Made by a program: the position numbers and the translations under genes. The notes under the pieces are model-generated. The model worked only from the letters and a program-made list of their open reading frames with translations, was not told the origin of the DNA and did no database searches. Of a stretch of DNA of 64,000 bases, positions 23,192 to 60,997 are shown one piece after another. Source of the DNA: Leptolyngbya sp. SIOISBB (GTDB lineage Bacteria > Cyanobacteriota > Cyanobacteriia > Phormidesmidales > Phormidesmidaceae); NCBI GenBank assembly GCA_010671905.1, contig JAAHII010000001.1:3844001-3908000 (forward strand), in the 5' to 3' direction. Every line of letters begins with the position of its first letter. The stretch's first letter is position 1.

Positions 23192-23812
23192 ATGAATCCC
23201 CGACTGCTGGAAAAACTGAACGCCCATCCTGAACTCCTGTCTGACCCAGCCGATCAGCAATACCCTGTGACAGGGATGAGCTGGCCAGCTGACGAAGCGC
23301 TACTCGCTGACCTAGGAGACGATTGCCCTGGACTGCGGGTGCACTACTTAGAGGGAACGCTGGAAATTACCCTGCCCGGTCGTCAACATGAAGTGATCAA
23401 AGACCACATCGCCGGTTTACTTAGAGCCTCCTTTGAAGAAACCCGCACCCGCTGCTATGGTCTGGGTTCCACGACGTTGAGAGCTGCAGCCAAGCGCCGA
23501 GGCGCTGAACCTGATGTTTCCTTTGGCATTGGCATTGATAAAGAATTTCCAGATATCGCCATTAAGGTCGTGCAGACTAGCGGCGGCGTGAACAAACGGT
23601 TAATTTACCAAGGCTTGAGCGTGGTCGAAGTCGGGTTCTGGCAAAACGATCAAGTCGAGGTCTACCGTTGGCAGGGAGAGAGATATGAGCGGCGAGAGCA
23701 CAGCGAGATTTTTCCTGCTTTAGAGTTATCCCTCCTGGCAACTGATGTGAGGTATCCCGAACCATTCGATGCGGTCATTGAATTTCGTCAGGCGTTGAGG
23801 AGTGCACAATGA
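23192..23812 (+). CDS. Uma2 family putative endonuclease (DUF820)
   Basis: A 206-aa protein of the Uma2 group, a restriction-endonuclease-like PD-(D/E)XK fold greatly expanded in cyanobacteria. Visible are the LEGTLEITLPGRQHE entry, AEPDVSFGIG with the core Asp, and DIAIKVVQTSGG, where the usual E-x-[VI] is replaced by IKV. It then reads KRLIYQGLSVVEVGFW and QVEVYRW. The altered motif leaves nuclease activity in doubt. It sits between the SNF2 helicase and the SWIM gene and overlaps the latter by 4 bp, so it is co-transcribed. Uma2 genes are often solitary, so presence inside the SNF2-SWIM pair is notable. Confidence 0.85.
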   Translation: MNPRLLEKLNAHPELLSDPADQQYPVTGMSWPADEALLADLGDDCPGLRVHYLEGTLEITLPGRQHEVIKDHIAGLLRASFEETRTRCYGLGSTTLRAAAKRRGAEPDVSFGIGIDKEFPDIAIKVVQTSGGVNKRLIYQGLSVVEVGFWQNDQVEVYRWQGERYERREHSEIFPALELSLLATDVRYPEPFDAVIEFRQALRSAQ

Positions 23813-24642
23813 GTCAGTTCAGCCGTACCTGGTGGGGACAAAAATTCATCGCAGCGATGGAGGAGTTGACCGACTCTGGTCGCCTCAGTCGGGGGCGGTC
23901 CTACGCCAGGGGTAACAAGGTCAAAAGCTTCAGCATCAAAGATGGCATTGTATCCGCTCAGGTACGCGGGTCGGTGAATCCCTACTTTGGGGTGTACGAA
24001 GAACCCCTCTACATCACCACTCTGGAGTTTCAGCCGATCAGTGCAGCCAAGTGGTCTGCCGCGATCGCTCTGCTCGCCTCCAAAGCCAGCCTGATTTCCC
24101 GACTGCTGCTGAACGAAATTCCCGACAATATCGAAGATACTTTCCAGCAGCTCAATCTCACTCTGCTACCCAGCCGCCGCAAAGACTTCCAATCCACCTG
24201 CTCTTGCCCCGACTGGAGTAACCCCTGTAAACATATTGCTGGGGTTTACTATCTAGTGGCCGCAGAATTAGATCAGAATCCTTTCCTGCTTTTTGAGTTG
24301 CGAGGGCTATCTAAAGACAACCTGATGCAAGAGCTCGCGAAGTCACCTTTAGGGCAAGCCCTATCGGCAGAACTCCAGCTCCAACAGCAAGCCCCTAAGT
24401 CTGTGGAGTCGTACTACGCTCCCCTAAAAACCATCAGCCCGGAAACCTGTGAGAGCCTGCGGCAATTTTGGCATGGTGCTAAACGTTTACCACCAATGAT
24501 GGAGCCATTACCTCAAATTCCGGTTGCGGGAATTCCGGTCAAAAAGCAGGGAGACTTGCCGGCCTTTTGGCATCGCGACAATTCTTTTATTGAAGCGATG
24601 GCAACTCTCTACCAACAGGTTAAAGCCAAAGGGCAGCTTTAG
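23809..24642 (+). CDS. SWIM zinc-finger protein
   Basis: A 277-aa protein with a SWIM finger of the CxC(n)CxH type, visible as STCSCPDWSNPCKHIAGVYY at about residues 128-147. The N-terminus FSRTWWGQKFIAAMEELTDS and RLSRGRSYARGNKV is characteristic of SWIM proteins encoded beside SNF2 helicases. The domain is thought to bind DNA or protein, so the gene probably supplies a targeting subunit for the helicase two genes upstream. ATGA-type overlap with the Uma2 gene implies translational coupling. It is intact, with no unusual composition. Confidence 0.88.
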   Translation: MSQFSRTWWGQKFIAAMEELTDSGRLSRGRSYARGNKVKSFSIKDGIVSAQVRGSVNPYFGVYEEPLYITTLEFQPISAAKWSAAIALLASKASLISRLLLNEIPDNIEDTFQQLNLTLLPSRRKDFQSTCSCPDWSNPCKHIAGVYYLVAAELDQNPFLLFELRGLSKDNLMQELAKSPLGQALSAELQLQQQAPKSVESYYAPLKTISPETCESLRQFWHGAKRLPPMMEPLPQIPVAGIPVKKQGDLPAFWHRDNSFIEAMATLYQQVKAKGQL

Positions 24643-57700: not shown

Positions 57701-58408
57701 ATCGGCCACATCCGGCCTTGGCAGGTCAGGAGACAACGTCTGCACTAAAACGCCGTCTAGATACACACAGACTTTCTCAATCCCTGCTTGGGCACAGGCC
57801 CACCCCACCACCAGAATTGTGTTCGAGGTGCCATAGTGAGGCACCACGAGTTGCTCGATGCCCCAATAGATGTCTTTAGGCTGCTTTTCCAGTGATGCAC
57901 TCAACGGCTGGCGAAATGGCTGCACTTGCACTGTGCGTTCTGCCACCGCACAACGGCCCTGCCGATCGCGAAAAGCTAACGTCAGCACCAGAGATTCACT
58001 AACGCCCTCAATATTTTCTAAGTGGGTGGAAAAACCACTGGTAGCGGCTGTCGTCAGGTGCGGGAGCGCCGCCGCTACATCCGGTCGCGCTAAGCTCGGC
58101 TGAATTTCTTGCTGCAGCACCCCATCGAGGTAGAGAGCGATCGCCTCAATTCCTGCCTCCGCACAGGCCCATCCTTCCACCAAAAGACTGGTATGAATCT
58201 CACGCGCATCGGTTGGATGATCAACGCCAAAGTAAATGCCCTGGGGTCGTTTTTCCAGCGTGGCACTGACGGGATGCCGAAATTGCCGTTGCGGTGTCTG
58301 TGAATTGGTGCCCCCTTTGGACAACCATTGCTGGAGCCAGGATCGCACTCTACTTTGCTTAATGCGCCACCAGATGTTCACAGATCTCAAACGAGCCCAG
58401 GAGTTCAC
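54737..58408 (-). CDS. 1223-aa multidomain glycosyltransferase (two GT2, one GT4)
   Basis: A very large cytosolic glycosyltransferase. After a basic N-terminus come two copies of a 125-aa beta-rich module (residues about 40-165 and 170-290; TLLVEGWACAEAGIEAIALY and ILVVGWACAQAGIEKVCVYL). A weak GT2-like section follows. A clear GT2 domain with VSIIIPTTGRLELVQPLVES, LLFLNDDIEIIEPEWLGEL and ALLFYPDGRIQHGGVFLIN begins near residue 575. A C-terminal GT4 domain (about 880-1220) has GINLIGFVRAEMGLGEAVRG, then DCYVSLHRAEGFGLVIAEAM and IATQWSGNIDFT. A SVSRQQSA duplication (residues about 800) links them. It is likely part of surface polysaccharide assembly, related to the enzyme at 41657-43456. Confidence 0.88.
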   Translation of the reverse strand: MNSWARLRSVNIWWRIKQSRVRSWLQQWLSKGGTNSQTPQRQFRHPVSATLEKRPQGIYFGVDHPTDAREIHTSLLVEGWACAEAGIEAIALYLDGVLQQEIQPSLARPDVAAALPHLTTAATSGFSTHLENIEGVSESLVLTLAFRDRQGRCAVAERTVQVQPFRQPLSASLEKQPKDIYWGIEQLVVPHYGTSNTILVVGWACAQAGIEKVCVYLDGVLVQTLSPDLPRPDVADDFPAIADAATSGFLTSITLDDARVGERLLMLAFYDQAGRCAVAEFPLHLDAKNLQYHRYFLAMLPSTAQAEVMLTRLRGQTTDLPDFEWWISSGTEAAIAATLQSMVEQNYPAWHGYVVAPAEQWPALAAIISDVLPTEGRSHITLQTEIHPDPEAIHPVHYIGFIQAGEILAPHALVRWATALTPDLPELSYTDNDQLKPGNLRCEANFKPDWSPDYALSRNYVGGLYLVRKTPVVLNALVVLSELDIMGGWRYDLWLRLTETIGSVHHVQEALWSQPYAKMLDAALIHREQVAVETALQRRQIAARVEAIADGTIRHIHWPLPESLPLVSIIIPTTGRLELVQPLVESCRAKTAYSSYELVFIDNSRGNHPEGIAYLNQQAVRVIEYDAPFNWSRLNNLGAAAAQGELLLFLNDDIEIIEPEWLGELVAQASRPEVGTVGALLFYPDGRIQHGGVFLINQGAGVMHHFQFVDPHFQIYQNLHQVVREVSSNTGACLMMRRSVFEQMQGFDEEFAIIGNDIDWALRVHAAGYRNIWTPFAQLTHHESVSRQQSASVSRQQSSITLDDAKIWQKWGDFLKAGDPYYNPNLTQDHTDCSLREIPPVSLAESPSELPTTSLATQTGINLIGFVRAEMGLGEAVRGLASAIDAVKIPFGIIDYVRFNTSQMGDTSWLHKLIERPQYELNILHFNGDLLPSVINDLPQDYCKERYQIGYWAWELPKLPNDWLDAFKFLDEVWVPSEFVRATVSECTDLPVVCIPHAVTKSDIPYLKRAFFDLPDAQFLFLIMYDAYSHQERKNPRGAIAAFRQAFAPNRQDVGLVIKVNNADAEEISYLREVMGDAPGIYILDSTMSRYEVDSLIHSCDCYVSLHRAEGFGLVIAEAMALGRPVIATQWSGNIDFTNSSNAACIGYELRQLEQDYGPYKAGQYWAEPNLEEAAQWMRRLADDPAYARQLGAQAQRTIAAQLSPQAIGQQILQRLRAIQAQR

Positions 58409-58564
58409 TCAGCCTTCTCCAGTTTTTGAACGGCCATCATCAAAGGTCAACATTGCTCACGAGGGGATATCACCCTCGCTAGTCAGCGGTCAGCCGACTT
58501 CTCGCGAGCGCCGCTTCATCACTCCATCCTAATGGTCAATCATTGTGACCCTGAGATGGCAACA

Positions 58565-58951
58565 CTATGGATTCGTCTCGGCCGGTGTTTGGGAACCGAC
58601 ATCCACCAACGTCCACTCAATCGAGGAAGCGTCTGCAGGCGGATTTTCCACCGGCGTCTTTTGCACGATCAGTTCATATTCGTAGCCCGGTTCATAGTTA
58701 AAACCGTTGATGCTGCTATAGAACAGCTCATATTCATCAGCTAGTGAGTAGCGGACTTGTAGGCATTGTTGAGGTGCTACGCCGACGCACTCAACCTTTT
58801 CTGGCCCCACATACAAGGTCACAATTTCAGCATCAGGAGATGTCTCCGCCGATTCTTCGGGTGCCGTGCAGGCGGCGATCGCCACTGTCCCCAACCCTAG
58901 CAGTGCTGACAACATCACTGTTGAAAGGCGGTTCTGATCAAGAAGTGGCAT
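58565..58951 (-). CDS. DUF4377 lipoprotein
   Basis: 128 aa from the ATG at 58951. The signal peptide has a hydrophobic core LSALLGLGTVAIAAC, with lipobox IAAC and the acylated Cys followed by an acidic Ser/Glu-rich linker. The mature domain is DUF4377: VTLYVGPEKVECVGVAPQQC, LFYSSINGFNYEPGYEYELI and a final SSIEWTLVDV. The function is unknown; related domains in HslJ/META-type heat-shock lipoproteins sit in the periplasm. The ribosome site GAGGAG lies 7-12 bases before the start, within a stretch complementary to the Yfr1 sRNA core. Divergent from the DUF2256 gene. Confidence 0.8.
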   Translation of the reverse strand: MPLLDQNRLSTVMLSALLGLGTVAIAACTAPEESAETSPDAEIVTLYVGPEKVECVGVAPQQCLQVRYSLADEYELFYSSINGFNYEPGYEYELIVQKTPVENPPADASSIEWTLVDVGSQTPAETNP

Positions 58952-58956
58952 CGGGA

Positions 58957-58967
58957 ACTCCTCACAC
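58957..58967 (-). promoter_or_regulatory. possible Yfr1 sRNA target site at the lipoprotein RBS
   Basis: The plus strand reads ACTCCTCACAC, the exact 11-nt ultraconserved core of the cyanobacterial Yfr1 sRNA. On the mRNA of the DUF4377 lipoprotein the complement GTGTGAGGAGT overlaps the ribosome-binding site, 6-16 nt before the ATG. Yfr1 binding would block translation. Plus-strand flanks show no second hairpin or terminator, so this is not Yfr1 itself. Confidence 0.45.
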
Positions 58968-59127
58968 AAGTCAACAGGTTCATCAATCCTGGCAGGTTTC
59001 AAAACGTTCAGCTCATCACAGCTACCTAACTTAAAAGTTCGTTGCTGCTGCTGGAACAGGCCGATTAGACAGCATCACCACCGCCTGAATTTAGCATCAT
59101 CATAGGGTTATAGGGTTGGGGACAGCG

Positions 59128-59283
59128 ATGGGACGTCAACGGTCAAAAGCAGATTTACCCACCAAGATTTGTCCGGTCTGTCAGCGACCTTTTACCTGGC
59201 GCAAAAAGTGGGCAGACTGCTGGGATGACGTGAAATACTGCTCCGAACGCTGTCGGCGGCGGCGATCACAAGCTGCAGAGTAA
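59128..59283 (+). CDS. DUF2256 small zinc-ribbon-like protein
   Basis: A 51-aa protein starting ATG 59128. The DUF2256 pattern is complete: LPTKICPVCQRPFTWRKKW, then DCWDDVKYCSERCRRRR. The four cysteines in CPVC and CSERC likely bind zinc. The family is widely found but functionally uncharacterised, often near photolyase or cryptochrome genes; none is adjacent here. The gap of 176 bp to the lipoprotein start holds divergent promoters. Confidence 0.8.
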   Translation: MGRQRSKADLPTKICPVCQRPFTWRKKWADCWDDVKYCSERCRRRRSQAAE

Positions 59284-59344
59284 GTCCGCTCTTGTCAGCA
59301 GCCGGACAGAAGTTGCGATGTCCTGGTAGAGCAAGTGCTGCCGG

Positions 59345-60997
59345 TCAATCTGTAAACGCTTGACTGCGGTTGGCTAATGCTGCCGCCGCTAGCAGTTTTG
59401 ACAGCAGCACAGCCTGACCTTCAGGCGTTTGGCTATAGCTAAATCCATAGGGCACGGTCGGTGCCAGTTCTGTTAATAACGACTCCAGCACATAAGGACT
59501 GCCATACACCACTAGTCCCACCAGGCAATTGTGGGCATTGAGGTGAGCGAAACACTGGGTAGCGAAGTCACTCAATCCAGCCCGACCCCGAAACGGATTA
59601 CCGCGACTAAAAATCTGCAGTAGGGTCGGCTGAGAGGTCTCCAGTTTTGGCATCGATAAGGGACACGATCGCCCATCCACGAGACGCGTTTGATAACCCC
59701 GAGCCGCCGGCAACGCGATCGCTGCCGCTTGAGGACTGAGCCAATCTGTACTCAACACATCATCGACAATCACGAGTGATCGCCCCAAGCCATCAGGACT
59801 CGCGGGGATTTGTCCTTGGACCGTAGTTGCAGCCGTCAAAACCTGATGTAGCGTCTCTCTCGCTTCCCGAGTTGCGAGCAGTTCTAGTTGCACCGGCGGC
59901 GGCGGAATATGCTCCCAGGCATGGCAGGTTTCTGGGGACGTCGTCAGACTGCTGCTGACTTTTTGCTTGGCCCGCCACACTCGCTCTAGGGAGGCCAGGA
60001 TCTGCTCTGGCGACAGTCGTCGCGTGCGCACAGCTTCCGCTAATGCCTGAATCGTGCCCTCTGGATCAGCGGGCATCAACAGCACGTCGGCTCCCGCTTC
60101 GATCGCTAACACCGCTGCCTCATAAGGACCATAACGGTTCGCGATCGCCCCCATAATCAAGGCATCTGTCACCACTAGCCCTTGAAACCCGAGGTCTCGT
60201 CGGAGTAACCCGGTCAGAATGGCGGGAGACAGCGTCGCCGGCAGTTGGGCATCGTAAGCCGGAACTTGCAGATGAGCCGTCATCACGGCATCCACTTGTT
60301 GGGCGATCGCAGCGCGAAAGGGCGCTAATTCAATCTGGTCAAGACGGGCCAAATCATGGGGAATCTCGGGCAACTGCACGTGAGAATCAACCGACGTGTC
60401 GCCATGACCGGGAAAGTGTTTCGCCGTTGTCAGGACTGGAAACGCCTGAGCACCCTCAATAAAAGCACGACTCAACTGACTGACCTGATCAGGCATCGAG
60501 CCAAAGGCCCGGACGTTAATCACAGGATTGTCAGCATTATTATTCACGTCGACCACCGGCGCCAGGAGCCAATTCAGGCCAATGGCGATTGCCTCCTGAG
60601 CCGTAATCTCCCCCATCTGCCGAGCATAGTCGCAGGCAAGAGCCAGATCACGCTCAGCGATCGCTGACAGGGCCATGGGTGGCGGCAAGTGGGTCGCTCC
60701 AACAAAGCGTTGTCCCACCCCTTCTTCAATATCGGCAGCGAGTAACAGGGGAATCTCAGACCAGGATTGCAGCTGTTGCGATCGCACCCCCACTTCGACG
60801 GCACTGCCCCCCAACAAGATGACACCACCAACCCCTAAAGATTCCACACAACGCTGGAGAGAGGCTTGATCAAGCTCCCATTGGGGATAGCGACGCTGAT
60901 GGTCAAATAAATATCCGGACGCCCGAACGACAATCAATTGAGCAATCTGGGCTTCTAAAGATAGTGCCTCAGGATCCGGTAGGCCGAGTGTTGTCAC
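59345..60997 (-). CDS. glycoside hydrolase family 3 (NagZ-like beta-N-acetylhexosaminidase)
   Basis: A 550-aa enzyme. The GH3 N-terminal domain has [35 protein letters not shown], then the NagZ-type catalytic His/Asp loop [16 protein letters not shown], and [12 protein letters not shown] with the catalytic nucleophile Asp. The C-terminal part, after about residue 345, lacks a clear second GH3 fold but has [16 protein letters not shown]. NagZ cleaves GlcNAc from muropeptides during cell-wall recycling; no signal peptide is visible, so it should be cytosolic. Its ATG overlaps the rbfA stop (ATGA), so it is translationally coupled to it. Confidence 0.87.

Follow-up and report, generated by a model that had tools for sequence, protein, structure and literature searches.

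An exact complement of the Yfr1 core over the Shine-Dalgarno sequence of a cyanobacterial DUF4377 gene: a plausible, unconserved Yfr1 target amid a class-wide excess of such sites

The stretch of DNA analysed here (hereafter the window, 64,000 nucleotides from the genome of Leptolyngbya sp. SIOISBB) raises the question of whether the small RNA Yfr1 represses a lipoprotein gene whose ribosome-binding site is an exact match to the Yfr1 core, or whether that match has arisen by chance. Reading the sequence directly, we find GTGTGAGGAGT on the minus strand at 58967-58957, followed by TCCCG and then by ATG at 58951-58949, such that 5 nt separate the site from the start codon (58951). GTGTGAGGAGT is complementary to the Yfr1 core ACUCCUCACAC at 11/11 nt and lies over the Shine-Dalgarno sequence of a DUF4377 gene, thereby overlapping the ribosome-binding site of this PF14302 gene. 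The exact complement claimed in the first-pass annotation is thus real, and the interval given for it there, 58951-58967, stretches from the start codon as far as the site's 5' end. The features of the locus are as follows:

58957..58967, minus strand: 11-nt exact Yfr1-core complement GTGTGAGGAGT, which includes the Shine-Dalgarno sequence GAGGAG (read from the sequence; core from PMC2190773 and from the genome's own yfr1)
58949..58951, minus strand: ATG start codon of the DUF4377 gene (start chosen by eye from the lipoprotein signal)
58565..58951, minus strand: DUF4377 lipoprotein gene, 128 aa (PF14302, E 2.8e-29, 101.3 bits)
58952..59127, minus strand: intergenic region of 176 nt, expected to hold the promoter and 5' leader of the DUF4377 gene
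59128..59283, plus strand: divergent DUF2256 gene, a synteny marker for orthology (PF10013, E 2.5e-23)
59345..60997, minus strand: glycoside hydrolase family 3 gene, a synteny marker (PF00933, E 1.5e-92)

The identification of the product as a DUF4377 lipoprotein also holds, given a PF14302 score far above the Pfam cut-off of 25 and a lipobox-like IAAC at residues 25-28, within an N-terminal lipoprotein signal judged by eye. The 5' edge of the site also offers an in-frame TTG, yet the ATG at 58951 is the preferred start, because initiation at TTG would lengthen the signal peptide by 6 residues, 2 of them acidic, and would place the site within the coding region. A simple consensus scan detects neither a sigma-70-like promoter nor a terminator in 58952..59127, and in a scan of the same kind across 58400-59400 no promoter consensus is recognised upstream for the DUF4377 transcript that would contain the site.

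The gene that the proposal presupposes is present. In the assembly that contains the window (8.34 Mb, two contigs), yfr1 is found as a single RF01116 match at G000:C1:1743790-1743854, which at 48.6 bits exceeds the gathering score of 38, and its core ACUCCUCACAC is intact and predicted to be unpaired between two hairpins. Upstream of it lies an IMP-dehydrogenase-like ORF, which we take to be guaB. The usual place of yfr1 is reported to be between guaB and trxA (PMC6778093), and its position here is consistent with this, as judged from the guaB-like side alone. The core is described as perfectly conserved in the Yfr1 of all cyanobacterial lineages (PMC2190773), and we recover yfr1 with the exact core in 6/6 genus members compared, and the core in all 30 yfr1 loci examined from further relatives (57 of whose genomes gave a match). 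Across the phylum, 135 of 292 genomes have a Yfr1 match, all of them in Cyanobacteriia, leaving 4 genomes of the class without one. The genome also appears to encode a Yfr2-like RNA: a minus-strand locus at G000:C1:1064521-1064589 (L290) resembles Cyano-1 RNA, presumably Yfr2, with a score of 37.5 bits that falls short of the cut-off (41), and carries GTGTGAGGAG, a 10-nt anti-Yfr1 stretch.

Taking these observations together with those below, we lean slightly towards repression of the DUF4377 lipoprotein by Yfr1, a plausible interaction that is not conserved. The 5' leader of the DUF4377 mRNA would offer Yfr1 a perfect 11-nt site across its Shine-Dalgarno sequence; Yfr1, its core predicted to be unpaired, would pair with this leader and block loading of the 30S subunit; the block would hold the lipoprotein at a low level; and the Yfr2-like RNA could titrate Yfr1, so that the lipoprotein would be released. 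We infer that Yfr1 and the DUF4377 mRNA may be produced together, that repression may follow and that it may have a physiological role, in which case a lineage-specific lipoprotein would join the Yfr1 envelope regulon. The pairing mode put forward in the first-pass annotation has precedent, since complementarity to the Shine-Dalgarno sequence is the mode tested in Nostoc on mRNAs for the cell wall and outer membrane (PMC6974561). According to the same source, 10/11 Yfr1 targets were repressed in reporter tests, mostly via translation-start sites. Blocking of the Shine-Dalgarno sequence has, however, been doubted as a rule for cyanobacterial sRNAs (PMC6778093).

The most serious rival to repression by Yfr1 is chance, to which we give about one third of the weight: a strong Shine-Dalgarno sequence, GAGGAGT, may simply happen to follow GTGT, with Yfr1 being irrelevant to the DUF4377 gene. 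The lack of conservation in relatives, which the first-pass annotation had itself named as counting against its proposal, favours this explanation. DUF4377 is rare, being found in 10/292 phylum genomes and in 6/95 close relatives (this genome is included in both counts), and only 2/5 other genomes of the genus possess it (G295 and G293). In both, the DUF2256 and glycoside hydrolase family 3 genes occupy the same places, making their DUF4377 genes positional orthologues, with identities of 69% (G295) and 62% (G293). Among the 95 genomes searched, the exact site is kept in 0/6 homologous genes from 5 other genomes, the syntenic ones included. The aligned leaders of the G295 and G293 orthologues lack the site and give no clear trace of it, and their best Yfr1 duplexes at the ATG (-10.4 and -10.1 kcal/mol, respectively) are no better than the background of the window; the signal peptide of G293 contains a GTG at which the duplex reaches -16.5 kcal/mol. 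Two paralogues in G339 have only AGGAGT and GAGGAGT left of the site, the homologues in G300 and G296 have nothing past AGGAG, and nine more distant homologues have no more than 6 contiguous nt in common with the site before any in-frame start examined. A search with the single protein for related loci returned 15 loci, none of them labelled cyanobacterial and which were therefore unusable as a test of site conservation; one is named 'uncultured bacterium' and the other 14 bear organism names that we take to belong to the phylum Bacteroidota. As far as these data go, the DUF4377 site appears private to this genome within the genomes compared, and these genomes suggest that it was gained in this lineage rather than being ancestral. 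A newly gained site may nevertheless still function.

The genomic count of the 11-mer is also what chance would give, as GTGTGAGGAGT occurs 4 times in 8.34 Mb against a calculated expectation of about 4 (the reversed word occurs twice), and the count alone was consequently rejected as a measure of significance. The four occurrences are yfr1 itself, L005, the DUF4377 gene and glmM. At L005 an ATG lies 1 nt downstream, which leaves no Shine-Dalgarno spacing, and so 2 of the 3 occurrences outside yfr1 (DUF4377 and glmM) stand 3-9 nt before the ATG of an ORF of at least 100 aa. It is this position, rather than the count, that argues against chance. We compared the pattern GTGTGAGGAGT-N(3-9)-ATG with two control patterns in which GAGGAGT is kept and GTGT is permuted, and found 0 and 0 such places for the controls in this genome. 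A reversed-pattern control (approximately 10 matches over 292 genomes, by eye) was set aside as too easy, because reversal destroys the Shine-Dalgarno sequence. Over the phylum, the pattern is present in 73/292 genomes and the two controls in 40 and 43. Within Cyanobacteriia the corresponding figures are 69/139 genomes, or 68 without G291, whose matches fall on yfr1, versus 34/139 and 34/139 (Fisher p 2e-5 for 69 versus 34, each genome being counted as independent despite relatedness, which is handled only via homology clustering). In the 153 genomes outside the class, none of which has a detected Yfr1, the pattern occurs in 4 and the controls in 6 and 9. The splits by class and phylum come from manual counting, and the total of 139 matches the Yfr1 tally (135 with and 4 without). 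Exact sites and detected yfr1 are not always found together, as G095 has two exact sites and no Yfr1 match found.

The excess is more pronounced among sites that head ORFs of at least 100 aa, of which there are 63 in the class versus 13 and 4 for the controls. These ORFs form 27 homology clusters (9 and 3 for the controls), and the DUF4377 site is one of 16 that fall in single-member clusters (6 and 2 for the controls). By this control yardstick, 2 to 6 of the 16 unconserved exact sites are expected by chance, a point in favour of the chance explanation, and the share of such sites that are genuine comes to roughly 60-90%. If so, a single exact Shine-Dalgarno match could serve as a class-wide predictor of Yfr1 targets, with a measured range of false positives. 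The counts exclude the matches L108-L111 of G291 and G257, which lie on RF01116; dropping these rows, including two sites on yfr1 itself, reduced ORF-heading sites from 65 to 63, clusters from 28 to 27 and class sites from 97 to 93. Minus-strand matches of these two genomes were not scored apart, the longer ORF per stretch being taken, and the second-control sites of G156 and G283, both outside Cyanobacteriia, were left out. A second, weaker RF01116 match is present on the opposite strand at the same place as L108-L111. A crude signal-peptide rule gave no separation between targets (41/65) and the first control (8/13), the only control to which it was applied.

A further possibility is that pairing does occur and has little effect on the lipoprotein, either due to limits set by mRNA structure or low expression, or because the mRNA is a minor competitor for Yfr1. 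We regard this as very unlikely. Opening the DUF4377 mRNA site is predicted to cost 6.3-6.9 kcal/mol, and its predicted mean unpaired probability is 0.28-0.30, which would favour such an outcome; at the glmM site the opening cost is lower (4.7 kcal/mol, with slightly different windows). Opening the Yfr1 core, on the other hand, is predicted to cost a mere 0.01 kcal/mol, and the duplex at the DUF4377 site reaches -19.9 kcal/mol (-18.5 kcal/mol for the core duplex alone), the best among 51 window ORFs picked mechanically (mean -10.8, s.d. 3.1). The net energy obtained by subtraction, about -12 kcal/mol, remains favourable, and reporters for mraY and murC are described as falling by more than 90% with Yfr1 (PMC6974561). 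The second-best duplex in the window, at -18.8 kcal/mol, belongs to the plus-strand ORF at 23809-24642, where TGAGGAGT (8 nt) precedes the ATG.

Slightly less probable still is that the plus-strand sequence ACTCCTCACAC belongs to a Yfr10-like sRNA that shares the Yfr1 motif and is antisense to the lipoprotein leader: the exact motif is indeed on the plus strand, and Yfr10 is reported to have only this motif in common with Yfr1 and to be otherwise poorly conserved (PMC6778093), but a simple consensus scan of both strands of 58400-59400 reveals nothing that resembles a promoter or terminator, no fold that was tried sets the whole motif in a hairpin loop (part of it lies in a small loop in some), and Rfam gives only two chance-level matches (E 4.6 and 5.5). 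A Yfr2/Cyano-1 RNA at the site is likewise unsupported, as Rfam lists no RF01701 match between 58700 and 59300 at E values up to 10.

The class-wide excess, together with the conserved site before glmM, is a more useful outcome than the DUF4377 site itself. Pfam searches, run on 1-3 members of 26/28 clusters and on the DUF4377 protein (the yfr1 cluster being left out), place 10/27 target clusters in cell-wall, capsule or outer-membrane families, as judged by us from Pfam names, versus 0/12 control clusters. Envelope families with several members comprise OprB porins with SLH (12), SpoIID (5), GlmM (5), PGA_cap (3) and peptidase M23 (2), and those with a single member comprise LytR-CpsA-Psr, alanine racemase, MurC, a TonB plug with AMIN, and an inverse-autotransporter beta domain. 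The remaining families are the squalene/phytoene synthase family (4), beta-lactamase-like (2) and STAS (2), along with single clusters of LmeA-like, TPR, radical SAM, subtilase, RTX/cadherin, caspase/STAND and FecR (just under the cut-off) proteins. Six target clusters have no Pfam family, including the lipoprotein-like L032 and a cluster of six exported proteins represented by L079, and one control cluster consists of a DUF3153 protein whose N-terminus looks lipobox-like. With NCBIfam, L122 is confirmed as MurC and both L003 and L100 as GlmM; L085, truncated at 367 aa, narrowly misses the cut-off. One exact word therefore recovers part of the Yfr1 regulon that was predicted, and in part verified, for Nostoc, namely murC, alanine racemase, conR and porins (PMC6974561). 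With our confidence evenly divided, we suggest that exact Yfr1-core complements over the Shine-Dalgarno sequence may constitute a recruitable tag of an envelope regulon, made up of recurrent targets (OprB porins, SpoIID, GlmM, PGA_cap and others) and lineage-specific captures of exported proteins (e.g. DUF4377), with glmM as a conserved target new to the literature searched.

In this genome, the Yfr1 site that appears conserved is that of glmM, unlike that of the DUF4377 gene. An exact complement lies over the glmM Shine-Dalgarno sequence at L003:1501-1521, equivalent to G000:C1:2480812-2480832 on the plus strand, and the exact site is present in 6/6 genus members compared and in G316. At least 9 contiguous nt of it are found in 17/28 readable relatives, a survey that took the best in-frame start and is thereby biased upward (59 genomes searched, 55 with a match, 30 loci examined, 2 of them unreadable). 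GlmM feeds UDP-GlcNAc into peptidoglycan and lipopolysaccharide. These results single out glmM, which acts in the route to UDP-GlcNAc, as a conserved candidate Yfr1 target open to direct testing. No mention of glmM or phosphoglucosamine mutase as a Yfr1 target was found in the article texts searched, and where Yfr1 and glmM do occur together the latter relates to a synthetic sRNA in Bacillus; a relative, pgm (phosphoglucomutase), is a reported Yfr1 target in Prochlorococcus MED4 (PMC6778093).

Comparison with known systems helps to place the DUF4377 gene. The reported Nostoc PCC 7120 targets murC, mraY, porins and conR (PMC6974561) involve the same core, the same pairing at the ribosome-binding site and envelope-related products, and were derived from prediction using conservation among ten heterocystous strains, whereas the DUF4377 gene is a candidate target in this genome only, known from its sequence. 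Similarly, in Prochlorococcus MED4 envelope-protein mRNAs are paired through the conserved core (PMC6778093, PMC6974561), yet the porin mRNAs concerned were reporter-tested, in contrast to the unconserved lipoprotein recognised here in genomic DNA. In the article text of PMC10936207 searched, lipoproteins feature only as a signal-peptide class.

The first-pass annotation further proposed envelope-stress control of the lipoprotein, which exceeds the evidence because published work describes Yfr1 as an abundant, almost constitutive RNA, its levels hardly changing with stress, and Yfr2 has been proposed as its titrator (PMC6974561); the yfr1 promoter is reported to be bound by FurC in Anabaena (PMC10936207). 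Envelope homeostasis would be a fitter term, provided that Yfr1 does pair with this mRNA effectively in vivo.

The literature on DUF4377 includes Acinetobacter proteins (PMC11724541, PMC9361855), the META-DUF4377 (HslJ-like/CipA) proteins, with which the window protein has the DUF4377 domain in common, although it consists of DUF4377 alone, without META. No link to Acinetobacter is implied, because Yfr1 is described as cyanobacterial (PMC2190773). In other cyanobacteria we observe DUF4377 fused to META (HslJ-like), following META in L007:568-1752 and preceding it in L019:1135-1932.

Two additional groups of exact sites were observed. Six genomes of family f7 (L079, L080, L082, L087, L090 and L097) carry an exact site before a gene whose product is 163-164 aa long and export-like at its N-terminus; the representative of this product, L079, gives no match in Pfam. 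In genus g33 of family f20, eight genomes (L114-L121), each 1.6-1.7 Mb in size, have an exact Yfr1 complement before ORFs of 2-18 aa.
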